Origin: Deltaproteobacteria bacterium
GTDB lineage: Bacteria > Myxococcota > Myxococcia > Myxococcales > SZAS-1
Length of the DNA: 64,000 nucleotides
Reading direction: 5' to 3'
Assembly: GCA_018266075.1 (NCBI GenBank)
Contig: JAFEBB010000009.1
Location: forward strand, 62,001 to 126,000
Made by a program: the position numbers and the translations under genes. Of this stretch, positions 47,656 to 59,786 are shown in pieces (within the stretch, counting starts at the first letter, position 1; every line of letters starts with the position of its first letter). The notes beneath the pieces were generated by a model. The model was given only the letters and a program-made list of their open reading frames with translations, was not told where the DNA came from and did not search any database.

Positions 47656-49233
47656 ATGCAGCCCTTCGTCGAGGAATGGCTCAACCTGGTGGTGCGCTGG
47701 GCACACGTGATCGCCGCGATCATGTGGGTCGGCGATTCGTTCCTGTTCATGTGGCTCGACAGCCACCTGCACGCGCCCACCCGCGCGCGCTCGGGCGCCG
47801 TCACCGGCGAGCTGTGGATGACCCACAGCGGCGGCTTCTACGAGGTGGTGAAGCGCAAGTCGCTCGCCCAGGACGAGATGCCGGGCACGCTCTACTGGTT
47901 CAAGTGGGAGAGCTACTCGACGTGGATCACCGGCTTCCTGCTGCTCATCATCGTGTTCCACACCAAGGAGACGAGCCTCCTCATCGATCCGCTCGTCATG
48001 AAGCTCACGCGCGACGAGGCCGCCACCCTCAGCATCGGGCTCCTGCCCGTGGCGTACGGCTTCTACGAGCTGCTCTGGCTCACGCCGCTCAAGAACCACA
48101 TGCGCGTGTTCGCCGCCGTGGGCGTGGGTTGCATCGCGGCGCTCGCATACGGGCTGACGCAGGTGTTCAGCGCGCGCGGCGCGTTCCTCCAGGTCGGCGC
48201 CACGCTGGGCACGATCATGGCGTCGAACGTGTTCTTCCGGATCATCCCGGCGCAGCGGCACATGCTCGCGGCCACGCGTGCGGGCCAGCCCGTGGACACC
48301 GGCTACGGCCTCCGCGCGAAGGGCCGCTCGGTGCAGAACCACTACCTCACGCTGCCCGTGCTGTTCACGATGCTCTCGAACCACTTCCCGAGCACGTACG
48401 GCAGCGACCGCCCCTGGCTCACGCTGACGCTCCTGGTGATCGTGGGCATGGGCGTGAAGTACGCGATGAACGCGCGGCTCTCGACGCCGCCGTGGGCGCT
48501 GGGCGGGACGATCGCCGCGCTCATCACCGTCATCGGAATCACGCGGCCGGCGCCGGATCGCACCGTCGACATCTACGCGAGCCAGCCCGAGGTGAAGTTC
48601 AACACCGTCGCCGGCATCGTGAAGCTGCGCTGCGTGACCTGCCACGCCGAGCATCCCACCAACGCCATGTTCACCGCGCCGCCCATGGGCGTGCGCCTCG
48701 ACACCACCGACTACATCCGCCAGCACGCGGAGCGCGTGTTCGTGCGCGCGGTGAGCACGCACAGCATGCCGCTCGCGAACATGACCGGCATGACCGACGA
48801 GGAGCGCGATGAGCTCGGCCGCTGGTTCGCGCACGGCGCCGATGTGCCCTGGGACGCGCAGATGCCGCGCGAGCAGCCCGTCTCGAGCGACGAGCCGGCC
48901 GTGGCGAGCGACTCCGACAAGCCGCAACCTGCGCATGGCGAAGAGGCCACCAAGCGGGCCAAGGCGTACTTCAAGACCGTCTGCGCAAGCTGTCACGGCC
49001 AGGACGGCAAGGGCGACGGCATCGCCGCCGCCGTGCTCAACCCGAAGCCGCGCGACTTCGCCGACCCGAATTGGCAGCAGAGCGTCACGGATCAGCACAT
49101 TCGCGAGACCATCCTCAAGGGTGGTCCGGCAGTCGGCAAGAGCGCGCTCATGCCCGCGCAGGTGGTGCTGGCCAACGACCCCGAGACTCTTAACGAGATT
49201 GTTAAGCTGGTGCGCGCCTTCGGAGCCGAGTGA
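47656..49233 (+). CDS. puuD: Membrane urate oxidase PuuD with an extra C-terminal cytochrome c domain
   Basis: PuuD oxidises urate to 5-hydroxyisourate and passes electrons to the respiratory chain through its cytochrome c. The 525-residue product has about eight membrane helices (to about residue 297), with the conserved WAHVIAAIMWVGDSF opening. The canonical heme domain follows, with CVTCH at 326-330 and candidate Met ligand in THSMP. After an acidic Ser/Asp/Glu linker (about 402-430) comes a second class I cytochrome c domain (CASCHGQDGKGDG, 443-455; Met499), not usual in PuuD. The stop overlaps the allB ATG (TGATG). It starts the urate-to-glyoxylate operon. Confidence 0.9.
   Translation: MQPFVEEWLNLVVRWAHVIAAIMWVGDSFLFMWLDSHLHAPTRARSGAVTGELWMTHSGGFYEVVKRKSLAQDEMPGTLYWFKWESYSTWITGFLLLIIVFHTKETSLLIDPLVMKLTRDEAATLSIGLLPVAYGFYELLWLTPLKNHMRVFAAVGVGCIAALAYGLTQVFSARGAFLQVGATLGTIMASNVFFRIIPAQRHMLAATRAGQPVDTGYGLRAKGRSVQNHYLTLPVLFTMLSNHFPSTYGSDRPWLTLTLLVIVGMGVKYAMNARLSTPPWALGGTIAALITVIGITRPAPDRTVDIYASQPEVKFNTVAGIVKLRCVTCHAEHPTNAMFTAPPMGVRLDTTDYIRQHAERVFVRAVSTHSMPLANMTGMTDEERDELGRWFAHGADVPWDAQMPREQPVSSDEPAVASDSDKPQPAHGEEATKRAKAYFKTVCASCHGQDGKGDGIAAAVLNPKPRDFADPNWQQSVTDQHIRETILKGGPAVGKSALMPAQVVLANDPETLNEIVKLVRAFGAE
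49189..49206. other. TAAC-N6-GTTA palindrome in the 3' end of puuD
   Basis: CTTAAC-GAGATT-GTTAAG is a perfect 18-bp inverted repeat with a 6-nt centre, 27 nt before the allB start. It encodes L-N-E-I-V-K with CTT, ATT and GTT, codons otherwise rare here. Confidence 0.55.
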
Positions 49234-50588
49234 TGGAGCTCGTGATTCGCGGACAGCGCGTGCTGACGCCCTCGGGCCTGCGCGCGGCGAGCGTGCACGT
49301 GCGCGACGGAAAGATTCGTGCGGTCGAGGCGTTCGATTCGATTCCGCCCGGCGCGAACGTGGTCGATGCGGGTAACCTTTTGGTTACACCCGGCGTGGTC
49401 GACTCGCACGTGCACATCAACGAGCCGGGTCGCACCGAGTGGGAAGGCTTCGAGACGGCGACGGCGGCCGCGGCGGCGGGTGGCATCACCACCGTCGTGG
49501 ACATGCCGCTGAACTGCATCCCCGCCACGACCTCACGCGAGAACGCCGAGCGAAAGCTGGAGGCGCTCGCGGGCAAGCTGCACGTGGACGTGGCCTTCTG
49601 GGGCGGCGTGATTCCGGGCAACGCGAGCGCGCTCGAGGGCCTGGCTCAGTTCGGCGTGCCGGGCTGCAAGTGCTTCACGTGTCCGAGCGGCGTGGACGAG
49701 TTCCCGCACGTCACGCGCGCGGACCTCGAGGTCGCGCTGCCGCGCTTGCACGACCTGGGGCTGTCGCTGCTCGTGCACGCGGAGTCGCCCGGACCGCTCG
49801 AGGCCGCCGAGCAGGCGGTCGCGGGCCGCGATCCGTGCGCGTACTCGACCTATCTCGACTCGCGGCCGCGCGCGGCAGAGGACGAGGCCATCGCGATGGT
49901 CATCGAGCTCTGCCGCAAGCACAAAGCGCGCGCGCACATCGTTCACCTCTCGAGCGCGAGCGCCTTGCCGATGCTCCGCGCCGCGCAGCAGGAAGGCGTG
50001 CAGATCACCGCCGAGACGTGCCTGCACTACCTCGCGTTCACGGCCGAGGAGATCGCGTCCGGTGCCACGAGCTTCAAGTGCGCGCCGCCGATTCGCGAGA
50101 GCAGCAATCGCGAGCAGCTCTGGGCCGGCTTGAAGGACGGCACGATCGGCATGGTCGTCTCGGACCACTCGCCGTGCACGCCTGCGCTCAAGAAGCCGGA
50201 GCAGGGGGACTTCCTCGCGGCCTGGGGCGGCATCAGCTCGCTGCAACTCGGGCTCTCCGTGCTCTGGACGCTCGCGCAGGAGCGCGGTCATTCGCTCGAG
50301 CAGATGTTCCGCTGGAACGTCGACGGACCCGCGAAGCTCGCGGGCCTCGCAGATCGCAAGGGCCAGCTCGCGGCCGGCTTCGATGCGGACATCGTCCTCT
50401 GGGACGACGCCGAGAAGTTTGAAGTCTCGCCGGCAGCGATTCGACACCGCCACAACATCACGCCGTACGCCGGCCGCACGCTTCAGGGCTGCGTGAAAAA
50501 GACGTTCGTGCGAGGCCAGCTCGCCTACGATGCCGCCTCGGGCAAGCCGCCGGCGACCGTCGGCAGCTTCCAGCCCGTCAGGAGGTAG
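49233..50588 (+). CDS. allB: Allantoinase
   Basis: Allantoinase opens the allantoin ring to allantoate with a binuclear metal centre. The 451-residue product has the amidohydrolase ligands: HVHINEP (His59, His61), the carboxylated-lysine position in GVPGCKCFTC, HAES, the IVHLSSA histidine and VSDHSPC aspartate. The ATG at 49233 overlaps the puuD stop. Codons 47-52 carry an embedded palindrome. Hydantoinases are relatives, but the operon context settles the call. Confidence 0.94.
   Translation: MELVIRGQRVLTPSGLRAASVHVRDGKIRAVEAFDSIPPGANVVDAGNLLVTPGVVDSHVHINEPGRTEWEGFETATAAAAAGGITTVVDMPLNCIPATTSRENAERKLEALAGKLHVDVAFWGGVIPGNASALEGLAQFGVPGCKCFTCPSGVDEFPHVTRADLEVALPRLHDLGLSLLVHAESPGPLEAAEQAVAGRDPCAYSTYLDSRPRAAEDEAIAMVIELCRKHKARAHIVHLSSASALPMLRAAQQEGVQITAETCLHYLAFTAEEIASGATSFKCAPPIRESSNREQLWAGLKDGTIGMVVSDHSPCTPALKKPEQGDFLAAWGGISSLQLGLSVLWTLAQERGHSLEQMFRWNVDGPAKLAGLADRKGQLAAGFDADIVLWDDAEKFEVSPAAIRHRHNITPYAGRTLQGCVKKTFVRGQLAYDAASGKPPATVGSFQPVRR
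49371..49388. other. TAAC-N6-GTTA palindrome inside allB
   Basis: GGTAAC-CTTTTG-GTTACA contains the perfect 16-bp palindrome GTAACC-TTTT-GGTTAC. It spells G-N-L-L-V-T using GGT, CTT, TTG, GTT and ACA in a row, a cluster of rare codons in an otherwise G/C-ending gene. Confidence 0.55.
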
Positions 50589-50591
50589 CGC

Positions 50592-52142
50592 GTGTCATCC
50601 CATCAGCCCGTGCCCGCACCGTTCGCGGGCCTGGTCGACTTGTCTTCCGACGTGCTCGGCACGTTCGTGCTCTTCGCCACCGACGACTACTTCGCGGCCA
50701 AGGAAAATCTCCTGAAGCCCGGCGCGCCGGTGTGGCTCGAAGGCGAGTACACCGACAAGGGCAAGTGGATGGACGGCTGGGAGTCGCAGCGCAAGCGCGA
50801 GCCCGGCCACGACTTCGCGATCCTGCGGCTCGGTGCAGCGGGCAGCGTGCGCGGGGTGCTCGTGGACACCACGCACTTCAAGGGCAACGCGCCGCAGCAG
50901 GTCTCGATCGAAGGCATCGAGCTGCCGCACACCGCCACGCCGGCGCAGCTCCTCGACGCCGATGGCTGGTTCGAGATCCTTCCGCAGAGCGCTGTGCAGC
51001 CGGATTTCCAGAACGTCTTTGAGCTCTCGGGTCCGAGCGCCCGCGCGACGCACATTCGCTTGCAGATCTTCCCTGACGGCGGCGTGGCGCGACTGCGTCT
51101 CTACGGCGACGTGATCCCGGAGGAACGCACGTTCTGGCGGCCGGGCAGCGTCGATTTGGGCGCCGTCGAGAACGGCGGCACGATCGCTTTGCAGAGCGAC
51201 GCGTTCTTTGGCCCGCCGCAGAACATGCTGCTGCCCGGACGCGGCGTGAACATGGGCGACGGCTGGGAGACCAAGCGTCGACGCACGCCGGGAAGTGATT
51301 GGGCGGTGGTGAAGCTGGCGCGGCGCGGCGTGGTGGAGCGCATCGAGCTCGACACGCACTTCTTCAAGGGCAACGCGCCGCAAGCGACGCTCGTGGAAGC
51401 GCTCGACGCGAGCGCGCTCGACGCGGAGACGCTCGCGGCCACGCTCGGCTCGCCCAGGGGCTGGACGGCGCTCGTGGACAAGACCGCGCTCGTACAGCAC
51501 CGTCGCCACCAGCTCGAGCCCAGCCGGCCGATGGCCGTGACGCACGTGCGCGTGCACATCTTTCCGCACGGCGGCGTGAACCGGCTGCGCATCTACGGCT
51601 ACGCGCTCGACACCGGCCCGGAAGCAGCGGCGATCGAGAAGCTCAATGCGCTCGACGAGAAGAAGGCCGAGGCGCTCTTCACGTCGGTCTGCGGCTCGAG
51701 CAGGTGGGCCGAGCTCATGACCGGTATTCGTCCGTTCGCGGATGTGCGCGCGCTGTTCGCCGCGGCCGACGGCGCGTGGTGGGCGCTCGGCAGCAAGGAC
51801 TGGCTCGAGGCCTTCGCCGCGCACCCGCGAATCGGCTCGAAGAAGAAGGCCGCGCCGCAGTCCAGCAAGAGCGCGAGCTGGAGCAAGGGCGAGCAGAAGG
51901 GCGTGGCCGGCTCGAAGGCGGAGACGCTCAAGAAGCTCGCGGCGCTCAACGACGCCTACTTCAAGAAGTTCGGCTTCATCTTCATCGTCTTCGCCACCGG
52001 CAAGAGCGCCGACGAGATGCTCGCGTTGCTCGAGGAGCGTGTGAAGCACAGCACGGCGCGCGAGATCGAAGCCGCGGCCGTGGAGCAGGCGAAGATCACC
52101 CGCGTGCGGCTCGAGAAGTGGCTGCGCGAGCAGACGAAGTAG
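50592..52142 (+). CDS. Fused allantoicase - OHCU decarboxylase
   Basis: The 516-residue product joins two purine enzymes. Residues about 1-345 are allantoicase with its usual two homologous halves: half 1 has GKWMDGWESQRKR and THFKGNAP; half 2 has GDGWETKRRR and THFFKGNAP. This part splits allantoate to ureidoglycolate and urea. Residues about 350-516 are 2-oxo-4-hydroxy-4-carboxy-5-ureidoimidazoline decarboxylase (UraD type): AHPRIG with catalytic His411, LNDAYFKKFGFIF and GKSADEMLALL. It makes S-allantoin. The two activities are not consecutive in the pathway. GTG start with AGGAGG 6 nt upstream. Confidence 0.92.
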   Translation: MSSHQPVPAPFAGLVDLSSDVLGTFVLFATDDYFAAKENLLKPGAPVWLEGEYTDKGKWMDGWESQRKREPGHDFAILRLGAAGSVRGVLVDTTHFKGNAPQQVSIEGIELPHTATPAQLLDADGWFEILPQSAVQPDFQNVFELSGPSARATHIRLQIFPDGGVARLRLYGDVIPEERTFWRPGSVDLGAVENGGTIALQSDAFFGPPQNMLLPGRGVNMGDGWETKRRRTPGSDWAVVKLARRGVVERIELDTHFFKGNAPQATLVEALDASALDAETLAATLGSPRGWTALVDKTALVQHRRHQLEPSRPMAVTHVRVHIFPHGGVNRLRIYGYALDTGPEAAAIEKLNALDEKKAEALFTSVCGSSRWAELMTGIRPFADVRALFAAADGAWWALGSKDWLEAFAAHPRIGSKKKAAPQSSKSASWSKGEQKGVAGSKAETLKKLAALNDAYFKKFGFIFIVFATGKSADEMLALLEERVKHSTAREIEAAAVEQAKITRVRLEKWLREQTK

Positions 52143-52151
52143 GAGGCGCGC

Positions 52152-52484
52152 ATGGGAATCAGCACGCACATCCTCGACACCGCGCGGGGCAAGCCGGCGG
52201 AAGGCGTGGCGGTCACGCTCTTCGCGCAGGACGGCGCGGGCTGGCGCGAGCTCGCCCGCGGCCAGACCAACAGCGATGGCCGCGTGAAGCCGTTCCTCGA
52301 CACCATCCCTGGCGCGGGCGTGTACCGGATTGAATTCGCGGTGGCGCCGTACTTTCAGAAGCTGGGCGTCGAGAGCTTCTATCCGCATGTGTCGATCGAC
52401 TTTCATGTGAAGGTGCCGACCGAGCACTTCCACGTGCCGCTCCTCTTGAACCCCTTCGGCTTCTCGACGTACCGAGGCTCATGA
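52152..52484 (+). CDS. uraH: 5-Hydroxyisourate hydrolase
   Basis: The 110-residue transthyretin-like enzyme hydrolyses 5-hydroxyisourate from PuuD to OHCU. It has the N-terminal STHILDTARGKPA with the catalytic His, FYPHVSIDF, HFHVPLLLNPFGFSTYRGS and the diagnostic C-terminal YRGS. AGGAGG lies just before the ATG. No signal peptide, so it is cytosolic. Its stop overlaps the allA start (ATGA). Confidence 0.96.
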   Translation: MGISTHILDTARGKPAEGVAVTLFAQDGAGWRELARGQTNSDGRVKPFLDTIPGAGVYRIEFAVAPYFQKLGVESFYPHVSIDFHVKVPTEHFHVPLLLNPFGFSTYRGS

Positions 52485-52993
52485 GCACCATCCGCACCCT
52501 CCTGGCGCAGCCGATCTCCCGCGAGGCGTTCGCGCCGTTCGGCGAGCTCGTGTCTGCGGGTGTCGTCGCGGGAGCGAGCGCGAACCAGGGCACGGCCACG
52601 CGCTTCGATCACGCGGCGCGGCTCGAGAGCGACCGCGTGCAGTCGCGGCCCAACCTCGCCGTGTTTCGCGCGCAGCCGCAGGATCTGCCGTTCGTGGTGA
52701 AGCTGCTCGAGCACCACCCGCACTCGAGCCAGGCCTTCATTCCCATGGTCTGCAAGCGCTTCCTGGTGATCGTCGCGCCGACGGCAGCGGACGGTGGGCC
52801 GAGCACGGGGCAGCTCGCCGCGTTCGTGTGCGGGCCGGGGCAGGGCGTGAACTACCACGCAGGCGTCTGGCACCACCCCATCGTGGCCATCGACGGGCCC
52901 GCCGACTTCGCCATGCTCGCCTGGGAAGACGGCACCGCGGGCGATTGCGTGGAGCGCCAGGTGCAGATGCCGGTGCTGGTACGAGTCGGGTAG
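52481..52993 (+). CDS. allA: Ureidoglycolate lyase
   Basis: AllA converts ureidoglycolate to glyoxylate and urea. The 170-residue product has the cupin-like family features: LEHHPHSSQAFIPM, AFVCGPGQGVNYHAGVWHHP and DCVERQV. Its presence means urea, not ammonia, leaves at this step, consistent with allantoicase upstream. No urease genes were seen in the window. Glyoxylate can go to the malate synthase encoded at 54430-55929. Confidence 0.94.
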   Translation: MSTIRTLLAQPISREAFAPFGELVSAGVVAGASANQGTATRFDHAARLESDRVQSRPNLAVFRAQPQDLPFVVKLLEHHPHSSQAFIPMVCKRFLVIVAPTAADGGPSTGQLAAFVCGPGQGVNYHAGVWHHPIVAIDGPADFAMLAWEDGTAGDCVERQVQMPVLVRVG

Positions 52994-54429: not shown

Positions 54430-55929
<1,500 letters not shown>

Positions 55930-55973
55930 GAGCCAATTATGCGCAGCCGCGACGCATTGTGCAGCCAAGCTGA

Positions 55974-58319
55974 CTAGCGCCCGGCCTTCGCGTCCTCGAC
56001 GGCAAAGAGCACCGACTCGGGCGTCGCCGGCAGATGGAGCTTCACCTCGTAGTTCGGCTTCGCGAACGCGCCGATCGCGTGTCGGAGCGCGCCAATCGCG
56101 CCAATCGCGAGCATCAGTGGCGGCTCGCCCACGGCCTTCGAGCCGTGAATCGTATCCGGCTGCGGCGCGCGCTGGAGCAGCTTCACGCGGAAGTCGTGCG
56201 GCGCTTCGCCCATCGCGGGGATCTTGTACGTGTCGGGCGAGTGCGTGAGCAGCACGCCCTTTTCGTTGAAGAGCACGTCTTCACAGGTGAGCCAGCCGTA
56301 GCCCTGGATGAACGCGCCCTCGACCTGGCCGCGATCGATCGTTGGCACCAGCGAGTCGCCCACGTCATGCAAGATGTCGACGCGGGTCATGCGGTGCTCG
56401 CCGGTGAGCCCGCTGAGCTCGACCTCGATCACCGCCGCGCCGTACGCGAAGTAGTGGAACGGCTTTCCGCGCCCCGCGTTGCGGTCGTAGGCGATGTTCG
56501 GCGTGCGGTAGAAGCCCGCGGCCGAGAGCTGGATCTGCTGCTGGTACGCCGCGAGCGCGACCTGCTCCAAGGGCACGCTCTTGCCGTTTGCGTTGGCCGC
56601 GTCGCGCGCGAACGTCACGTCCGCGCCGTCGACGCCGAGCAGCTTCGCCGCGATCGGACGGAGCCGCTCACGAATCTGCGCGCACGCATCGCGCACGGCC
56701 TGGCCATTCAAGTCCGCGCCGCTCGACGCCGCCGTCGCCGACGTGTTCGGCACCTTGTCCGTCGCGGTGTTCATCGCGCGGATCTTGGAGAGGCTCACGC
56801 CGAGCTCGTGCGCGCACACCGCGAGCATCTTGGTGTGCAGGCCCTGGCCCATCTCGGTGCCGCCGTGGTTCAGCTGCACCGAGCCGTCGCCGTACATGAG
56901 CACGAACGCGCCGGCCTGGTTGAGGATGCTGTTGGTGAAGCTGATGCCGAACTTGATGGGCTGGAAGGCGATGCCGCGCTTCAGGTGTGTCGAGGCGCGG
57001 TTCCACTGATCGATCTCCGCGCGCCGCTTCACGTAGTCGCTCGAGGCCATCAGCTCGGCGTAGATGCGCTCCAGGCGGTTGTCGTCGAACTTAACCTCTT
57101 GGTTATATGGCGAGAGGTTTCGCGGCGCGGCGCCGTAGAAGTTGCGTGCGCGAACCTCGGCGGGATCGAGTCCGAGCTTCTCGGCCGCGCGGCTCATCGC
57201 CGTCTCCACCACGACCATGCCCTGCGGTCCACCAAAGCCACGGAACGCGGTGTTCGAGGGCAAGTTGGTTCGGCACACCTTGCCCGTGAACTTGAGCGCG
57301 GGGATGAAGTACGCGTTGTCGAGGTGGAAGAGCGCGCGGTCGAGGATGGAGAACGACAGATCCATCGACCAGCCGCCGTTGGCGTAGACCTCGGCCTCGA
57401 GCGCGAGCAGCCTGCCGCTGGTGTCGAAGCCAGCGTCGAAGCGCGTCCAGAACGGGTGGCGCTTGCCGGTCTGGGCCATGTCCTGGTCGCGGTTCAGCCA
57501 CACCTTAACCGGACGGTTAAGCTTGCTCGCGGCGAGCGCGGCCATGGCGGCATAGGGCGCGGCCTGCGTCTCCTTGCCACCGAAGCCGCCGCCCATGCGC
57601 GGCACCTCGACGACGATCTCGTTCCGGCCCTTGGCCAGCACGTGCGAGACGATGGCCTGCACCTCGCTCGGGTGCTGCGTGGAGCAGTGCAGCTTGAGCG
57701 CGCCGTTCTCGTCGGGCACCGCGAGCGTGACCTGCGTTTCCAGGTAGAAGTGGTCCTGGCCGCCGTTCTGCACTTCCCCGGAGATGCGGACGGGCGCCTT
57801 GGCGAGCTCGGCGGCCACGTCGCCGCGCTGGATGATGTGCGGCGTGCCCAGGAACGCGTCGGCCTTGATCGCGTCGGCGATGGTGAAGATTGCGGGCAGC
57901 GGTGCGTAGTCGATTTCAACTGCATTCGCAGCCGCTCGACATGCCGCGTAGCTCTCGGCGACGACGAGCGCGATGGACTGGCCCGTGGTTTGGACCTCGC
58001 CGTCGGCGAAGAGCGGCTCGTCGTGCACGACGGGCCCGACCTGGTTGTCGCCGGGGATGTCGCGCGCGGTGAAGATGCCGTGCACGCCGGGAACCGAGCG
58101 CGCCTTGGCCGCATCGAAGCGCGTGATGCGCGCGTGTGCGTGCGGCGAGGCAATCACCAAGCCCACGAGCATTCCCGGCGGGTGGGGCAGATCGTCGACG
58201 TACAGCGCTTCGCCGCTCGCGTGACGCAGCCCGCTCTCGTGCAGCGCGTCCTGGTGCAGCGGCGAGTCGCGCGGCTCGCGTGGCGTCGGCGGCGGTTGCT
58301 GGCGCGGCTCGATGCTCAT
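55974..58319 (-). CDS. xdhB: Xanthine dehydrogenase, molybdopterin-binding large subunit
   Basis: The 781-residue subunit carries the molybdenum cofactor site that oxidises hypoxanthine and xanthine to urate. Family motifs include [58 protein letters not shown] and the catalytic Glu in [10 protein letters not shown]. Its start overlaps the xdhA stop (ATGA). Two palindromes lie within the coding region. No XdhC-type chaperone gene is adjacent. Confidence 0.95.
57090..57107. other. TAAC-N6-GTTA palindrome inside xdhB (imperfect)
   Basis: CTTAAC-CTCTTG-GTTATA on the plus strand; TAACC-TCTT-GGTTA is a perfect core. On the coding strand it spells Y-N-Q-E-V-K with TAT, CAA and GTT. Confidence 0.5.
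57504..57521. other. TAAC-N6-GTTA palindrome inside xdhB (perfect)
   Basis: CTTAAC-CGGACG-GTTAAG is a perfect inverted repeat at least 8 bp per arm. On the coding strand it spells L-N-R-P-V-K with CTT, CGT and GTT. Confidence 0.55.
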
Positions 58320-59776
58320 GGCGACCTCGCGGGCGCGCCGGCCTGGACGGTCGCCGTGTGGGGATGCGGCAAGCGCGGCTGCGGTGCGGTGCGCGTCTCT
58401 TCGAAGAAGCCGCGCAGCAGGTTCTTCGCGACCAGCATGCGATAGGGCGCCGAGCCGCGATGATCGGAGAGCGGCTTGAAGTCGGCGTCGAGCAGCTTCG
58501 CGGCCGCGTCGACGTTCGCTTGCGTCCACGGCTTGCCCACGAGCGCCGCTTCCGCCTGCTTCGCGCGGGCGGGCGTCGCGGCCATGCCGCCGTACGCGAG
58601 TCGCGCGGACCTCACGTTCTCGCCGTCGAGCTCCACGGCGAACGCGGCGGACACGCAGCTGATGTCCAGTTCGCGGCGCTTGCTGACCTTGTACGAGGTC
58701 GCTCGCACGTCCTTGCCGGGCGGCGCGAACTCCACGCGCGCGAGGATCTCCTTCGGCGCGAGCGCGGTCTTGCGATACGCGACGAAGAAGTCGCTGGCCT
58801 TCACGCGTCGCTCGCCCGCGCGAGAGAGCAGCACGAACGTCGCATCCAGCGCGAGGAACACCGGTGGCAGATCGCCAATCGGTGACGCGTTGCAGAGGTT
58901 CCCGCCGACGGTGGCGCGGTTCTTCACCTGCCGCGCGCCGAAGTAGCGCAGCATGCGCTCGAGCATCGGGACGGGCTTGCTCGCGAACTCGAGCGTCGAG
59001 AGATCCACCGCGGCGCCGATTCGCACCGCCGGCGAATTGAAATCGAATTGTTTCAAATCCGGAACGCCCTCGAGCGAAACGAGCATCTGCGGCTCGGCGT
59101 AGCGCTTGGTGATCTCGAGCGACAGGTCGGTGCCTCCGTTCACGAAGCGCGCGTTCGGGTTCGCGTCCAGCACGTCCCAGAGCTCGTTGAGCGTCGCCGG
59201 CGTGCAGAAGCGCTGCGAGGTCGCGTCGTACGCGAGCGCCATCGGCTCGGGCTTGGCCTCGTGCAGCGTGCGCGTGAAGCGGTCCACTGGCCGCAAGCCG
59301 GCGACCTTGGCCGTGGCCTCGCGAATCGGCCGGTAGCCGGTGCAGCGACAGAGGTTGCCGCACATCGCGGCGTCGAGCTCCCAGGGCTCCTTGAAGCCCT
59401 CGCCGTAGCAGGCCTCGAACATGGCCATCACCACGCCGGGCGTGCAGTAGCCGCACTGGGAGCCGAGCTCGTCCGCGAGCGCGTGCTGCACCAGGTGGTA
59501 GCCGCTCGCGTCCTTGAGCGCCTCGACCGTGTACACGCGCTTGCCCTGAATCATCGGCAAGAGCAGCAGGCAGGAGTTGATGGCGCGGTACTGCGCCTTG
59601 CCGTCGATGGTTTCCAGTACGGCAACGGTGCACGCGCCGCAGTCGCCCTCGGCGCAGCCTTCCTTCGTGCCGGTGAGGTGCGCGTGGTCGCGCAGGTAGC
59701 GGAGGAGCGTGGTGGTGGGCGAGACGTCGCGAAGCTCGACCCAGCGATCGTTCAAGCAGAAACGCAGGCGGTCCAT
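58316..59776 (-). CDS. xdhA: Xanthine dehydrogenase, iron-sulfur/FAD small subunit
   Basis: The 486-residue subunit moves electrons from molybdenum to FAD. The N-terminal plant-type 2Fe-2S cluster uses GCAEGDCGACTV, and the second cluster domain has GSQCGYCTPG and CGNLCRCTGY. The FAD domain shows FVNGGTDL and the RNRATVGGNL-like KNRATVGGNLCNASPIGD. An internal ATG at 59776 (MDRLRFCLND) is chosen over one 9 nt upstream. A strong inverted repeat sits just before the start, where a regulator could act. Confidence 0.95.
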   Translation of the reverse strand: MDRLRFCLNDRWVELRDVSPTTTLLRYLRDHAHLTGTKEGCAEGDCGACTVAVLETIDGKAQYRAINSCLLLLPMIQGKRVYTVEALKDASGYHLVQHALADELGSQCGYCTPGVVMAMFEACYGEGFKEPWELDAAMCGNLCRCTGYRPIREATAKVAGLRPVDRFTRTLHEAKPEPMALAYDATSQRFCTPATLNELWDVLDANPNARFVNGGTDLSLEITKRYAEPQMLVSLEGVPDLKQFDFNSPAVRIGAAVDLSTLEFASKPVPMLERMLRYFGARQVKNRATVGGNLCNASPIGDLPPVFLALDATFVLLSRAGERRVKASDFFVAYRKTALAPKEILARVEFAPPGKDVRATSYKVSKRRELDISCVSAAFAVELDGENVRSARLAYGGMAATPARAKQAEAALVGKPWTQANVDAAAKLLDADFKPLSDHRGSAPYRMLVAKNLLRGFFEETRTAPQPRLPHPHTATVQAGAPARSP

Positions 59777-59786
59777 GCGCCACACA

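Follow-up and report, generated by a model that had tools for sequence, protein, structure and literature searches.

In purine breakdown, the OHCU decarboxylase UraD converts OHCU to (S)-allantoin, the allantoinase AllB converts allantoin to allantoate, and allantoicase converts allantoate to ureidoglycolate and urea. In the stretch of myxococcotan DNA analyzed here (64,000 nucleotides; henceforth the window), UraD and allantoicase are encoded by a single gene, raising the question of why two enzymes separated by an intervening step should have been joined. A prior reading of the sequence alone had noticed the pair, regarded the two steps as non-consecutive, in agreement with the established biochemistry, and proposed that the fusion might scaffold a larger complex with allantoinase. 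The gene and its parts are as follows:

50592..52142, + strand: fused allantoicase-OHCU decarboxylase gene; GTG start, 516 amino acids plus stop
50658..51113, + strand: allantoicase repeat 1 (PF03561; Pfam)
51174..51602, + strand: allantoicase repeat 2 (PF03561; Pfam)
51603..51632, + strand: interdomain linker of about 10 codons, YALDTGPEAA
51645..52115, + strand: UraD/OHCU decarboxylase domain (PF09349), covering the whole profile (1-155)
51822..51824, + strand: His411 codon; this histidine is conserved in UraD, within the AHPRIG motif, and is placed also by alignment to Arabidopsis UraD (2q37)

The frame has no internal stop across its 516 codons and encodes a two-repeat allantoicase (residues ~24-337), a linker of ~10 residues, and a UraD domain (~347-512). 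Pfam recovers two stretches of the allantoicase repeat (1e-93) and an OHCU_decarbox domain at residues 352-508 (profile positions 1-155 of 155; 8e-43), while both halves also exceed the curated cut-offs of their NCBIfam models, namely TIGR02961 allantoicase (379.5 bits against 277.9; residues 14-336, model 2-323 of 324) and TIGR03180 UraD_2 (158.5 bits against 139.4; residues 351-509, model 1-156 of 158). This bears out the earlier claim of two complete domains in one polypeptide. The UraD histidine claimed along with them is likewise present, as His411, and is invariant in all 136 sequences compared; Glu434 is kept in 133 of the 136, and Arg506 is found in every compared sequence that reaches that column. 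We take these three to be the catalytic residues of the UraD half, as in the solved UraD enzymes. More generally, both halves keep many invariant positions across 27 fused homologues, and the length of the linker is nearly constant, at 7-15 residues in most fused homologues.

An AlphaFold model of the fusion, built on these 27 homologues (pLDDT 88.9, pTM 0.85), gives the same picture: its allantoicase half resembles the yeast allantoicase (1o59/1sg3; TM 0.80 by target, 37% identity), its UraD half the Klebsiella OHCU decarboxylase (3o7h; TM 0.89 by target, rmsd 2.0), and the link between them is short, with the final allantoicase strand running to residue 338 and the initial UraD helix starting at 342. 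From these conserved features, we infer that both halves are catalytically active. A whole-genome domain search found one UraD and one allantoicase domain in the source genome, both in the fused protein, with no second copy of either elsewhere in that genome. Hence, if the pathway works, both functions must come from the fused gene.

The sequence-only reading had noted that a sequencing error joining two genes would undo it. A search of 195 Myxococcota genomes with NF010371, the model of the fused family, returned matches in 89; an uninterrupted two-domain frame is present in 29 genomes, the window's included and one cut by a contig end, which span 14 genera and five families. The junction is thus open in 28 further Myxococcota genomes, among them G084, whose frame lies on a single 12.5-Mb contig; homologues sharing 48-76% identity with the window protein keep an open frame across the junction. 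Since independent genomes share the same open junction, chance and sequencing error are excluded, and we assign a negligible probability to the joining of two genes by sequencing or assembly error. Fused forms were also recovered in loci labeled as Acidobacteriota, Planctomycetota, Actinomycetota (Euzebyaceae), and an uncultured proteobacterium, the labels of these metagenome bins being used as given; this prevalence outside Myxococcota reflects 80 loci picked by similarity rather than a census. The same breadth tempers the idea that the architecture is uncommon, most of which has to be given up: with 14 Myxococcota genera and a few loci from other phyla, it is largely common, and it is already catalogued via NF010371. 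In the plasmid collection, no record reached 80% query coverage, and the annotated best places were plain allantoicases.

The genomic setting of the gene is that of a purine-degradation locus:

47656..49233, + strand: PuuD-type membrane urate oxidase (Urate_ox_N plus cytochrome c); 4-base overlap with allB
49230..50588, + strand: allantoinase AllB (TIGR03178, 554.5 bits, cut-off 357.85); ends 3 bases before the fusion gene
52152..52484, + strand: hydroxyisourate hydrolase (UraH/HIUase; TIGR02962, 132.9 bits, cut-off 87.45)
52481..52993, + strand: ureidoglycolate lyase family (PF04115); 4-base overlap with the HIUase gene
54430-55968, - strand: malate synthase A (glyoxylate use)
58316-59785, - strand: xanthine dehydrogenase small subunit

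The allantoinase gene is indeed the direct upstream neighbor, as had been reported. The order puuD-allB-[alc-uraD]-hiuH-ureidoglycolate lyase is encoded entirely on the + strand, and as the neighbors overlap by 4 bases or sit at most 10 bases apart, it reads as a single urate-to-glyoxylate operon. With genes for malate synthase A and xanthine dehydrogenase adjoining this ureide operon, the window covers both ends of purine-to-glyoxylate use. No classical uricase was found in the source genome, and PuuD is therefore the likely urate oxidase. The window PuuD displays two CxxCH motifs (at amino acids 326 and 443) and, by these motifs, probably carries two c-type hemes. Two such motifs are also seen in the PuuD proteins of the Myxococcota relatives at L041, L043, L044, L047, L059, L063, and L065, with most others having one.

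As a separate observation, the PuuD genes beside some of the related loci depart from this heme-bearing form, either in lacking CxxCH altogether or in being reduced to the membrane domain:

L074:7825-9522, + strand: PuuD without CxxCH
L076:166-2265, - strand: PuuD without CxxCH
L088:2915-6256, - strand: PuuD without CxxCH
L109:2998-4620, + strand: PuuD without CxxCH
L114:2989-4605, + strand: PuuD without CxxCH
L134:2926-4605, + strand: PuuD without CxxCH
L066:8303-9178, + strand: membrane-only PuuD
L093:8106-8918, + strand: membrane-only PuuD
L111:3810-4649, + strand: membrane-only PuuD

The six PuuD proteins without CxxCH share a C-terminal domain in which an invariant His and a Cys-Asp-x-His-Pro-Trp-Met motif (H...CDxHPWM) form a type-1 copper pattern. 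The structure predicted for this domain (pLDDT 81.3) matches mainly plastocyanins, amicyanins, and a copper nitrite reductase, at a modest TM of ~0.6 by target and with only one match at E <0.001; the Pfam Copper-bind profile scores below its cut-off on this domain. On the basis of the motif and the model, a cupredoxin domain appears to take the place of cytochrome c in these six proteins, and a copper-linked PuuD variant possibly exists in records of Myxococcota, Planctomycetota, and Bdellovibrionota. If true, there would be a copper-based form of PuuD urate oxidation. The short homologues, of ~270-290 amino acids, comprise the membrane domain only, their frames encoding no heme motif; they occur at L066, L093, L111, L096, L099, and L120.

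What, then, brought allantoicase and UraD together? Most Myxococcaceae-type genomes keep alc and uraD as two touching genes, with the alc stop and the uraD start overlapping as ATGA or GTGA. Across the 96 two-domain loci among L041-L140, 69 have allB directly upstream and HIUase directly downstream, 45 of these being split and 24 fused, and some of the remainder are cut by contig ends; further, a 4-base stop/start overlap is found in 20 of 66 split same-strand pairs. The order allB-alc-uraD-hiuH is thus widespread across many phyla, independent of fusion. The fused domains skip a pathway step yet are old gene neighbors, and the conserved order together with the frequent 4-base overlaps accounts for the pairing of these two enzymes despite their non-consecutive steps. 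We do not regard the fusion as an oddity that needs a scaffold to explain it.

To trace the two states, a tree was built from 109 concatenated proteins, of which 43 are fused and 66 split; it is quick and unrooted, with many open forks. Parsimony on this tree gives at least seven changes between the fused and split states, two of them forced by starred branches, and the count is still seven without the long-branched L088. Constraining all fused proteins to one clade lowers the log-likelihood by 123.5 (p-AU 0.001), and the AU test thereby rejects a single fused origin, indicating that the fused and separate states have changed more than once; on an unrooted, quick tree, these changes may be read as either fusions or fissions. 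A starred clade of 21 fused proteins, drawn from several Myxococcota families, contains the window protein and lies far from the split Myxococcaceae-type clade. Both states even occur within one genus (g29), the locus being fused in G084, G085, and G087 and split in G086, G088, and G089. The two versions from this genus sit in distant clades, a pattern suggestive of replacement through gene transfer, which probably played a part in the history of the locus.

Taken together, we consider it highly probable that the window encodes a bifunctional enzyme of oxidative purine breakdown formed by the joining of conserved, touching neighbor genes. Under this proposal, the C-terminal UraD domain would decarboxylate OHCU to (S)-allantoin, the separate AllB would open allantoin, and the resulting allantoate would be split by the N-terminal allantoicase domain into ureidoglycolate and urea; with the allantoinase step in between, the two fused domains cannot pass substrate directly to each other. 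The old neighborhood of alc and uraD within allB-alc-uraD-hiuH, with ATGA or GTGA overlaps in many lineages, would have required only a small frame change or the loss of a stop to join the two, leaving a linker of ~10 residues. The benefit is likely to lie in a fixed stoichiometry and the co-translational assembly of two enzymes of the same pathway.

That such a benefit exists at all might be disputed: the stop could have been lost by chance in an overlapping pair, and the fused gene, of no advantage, could have become fixed and been carried further by gene transfer, the enzyme still being bifunctional. The repeated changes of state, the little change that a 4-base overlap needs to become a fusion, and the differences among genomes of one genus all sit well with such a neutral course; the retention of the fused state in 14 Myxococcota genera, mostly in two supported clades, and the nearly constant linker length speak against it, and we judge it doubtful on balance. 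Selection for a scaffold is considerably less probable still. Here, the fusion would hold AllB between its domains or dock on an AllB oligomer to constitute an OHCU-allantoin-allantoate-ureidoglycolate metabolon. The presence of allB directly upstream in most loci is consistent with this, as is the UraD-N-carbamoyl amino acid hydrolase family NF010373, in which the same one-step gap would recur if the hydrolase acts on allantoate. The only precedent found is the allantoinase-allantoicase complex of amphibians, as cited in PMC3646786. However, fused and separate forms share one genus and the same gene order, which implies that the fusion is dispensable, and Bacteroidota and plants, moreover, have UraD fused to HIUase, such that UraD fusions do not point to any one complex. 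The stricter version, in which the fusion serves as a fixed metabolon core, with AllB recruited between the two domains and OHCU channeled through allantoin and allantoate to ureidoglycolate despite the non-consecutive steps, is marginally more improbable than scaffolding in general. A metabolon with AllB is possible, but nothing in these data requires one.

The joining of conserved neighbors, which we favor, makes this protein an example of how operon order, rather than the order of reaction steps, may decide which enzymes fuse. As the fused and split forms coexist in one genus with the same gene order, the value of the fusion is directly testable.

Among known systems, the closest is the NCBIfam equivalog NF010371/PRK13797, a single model of 521 positions spanning allantoicase and UraD in the same order as in the window. 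Each of the 27 fused homologues in the alignment matches it; the window protein aligns over residues 11-511 with its positions 12-518 (539 bits, 1.1e-161), below the cut-off of 814 bits, placing the window protein outside the equivalog as curated. That cut-off is reached in none of the 195 Myxococcota genomes, so that their proteins are divergent relatives. The name of the model, 'allantoicase', omits the UraD half, and this gap in annotation has a practical consequence: where a fused protein is named only as allantoicase, the UraD activity of the genome can be missed. In open-access full texts, we found no paper on a bifunctional allantoicase-UraD protein; those naming allantoicase, OHCU decarboxylase, and fusion deal with other matters, and a Streptomyces paper that names allantoicase does not mention OHCU.

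Where alc and uraD are separate neighbors, in Myxococcaceae-type genomes and in many other phyla, they match the window in their domains, order, and allB and hiuH neighbors, but form two frames, often with the ATGA/GTGA overlap, in place of one. A different partner follows UraD in NF010373/PRK13799, where the window UraD matches the N-terminal 'unknown domain' that precedes an N-carbamoyl-L-amino acid hydrolase; the first 170 positions of this model match UraD, which its name, 'unknown domain/N-carbamoyl-L-amino acid hydrolase fusion protein', leaves out. The remaining parallels couple consecutive steps. In the UraD-HIUase proteins of plants (PMC2834698, PMC3646786) and Bacteroidota, UraD is likewise joined to an enzyme of the same pathway, but the partner is another one and acts at an adjacent step. 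The Bacteroidota versions are single frames lying apart from allantoicase (L115:8562-9434, L118:8331-9275, and L130:8394-9245, all on the + strand), and L137 resembles these loci by its coordinates. Similarly, in a eukaryotic allantoicase fusion without UraD, the partner from the same pathway acts on the product of allantoicase and, in contrast to the pair in the window, catalyzes the consecutive step.
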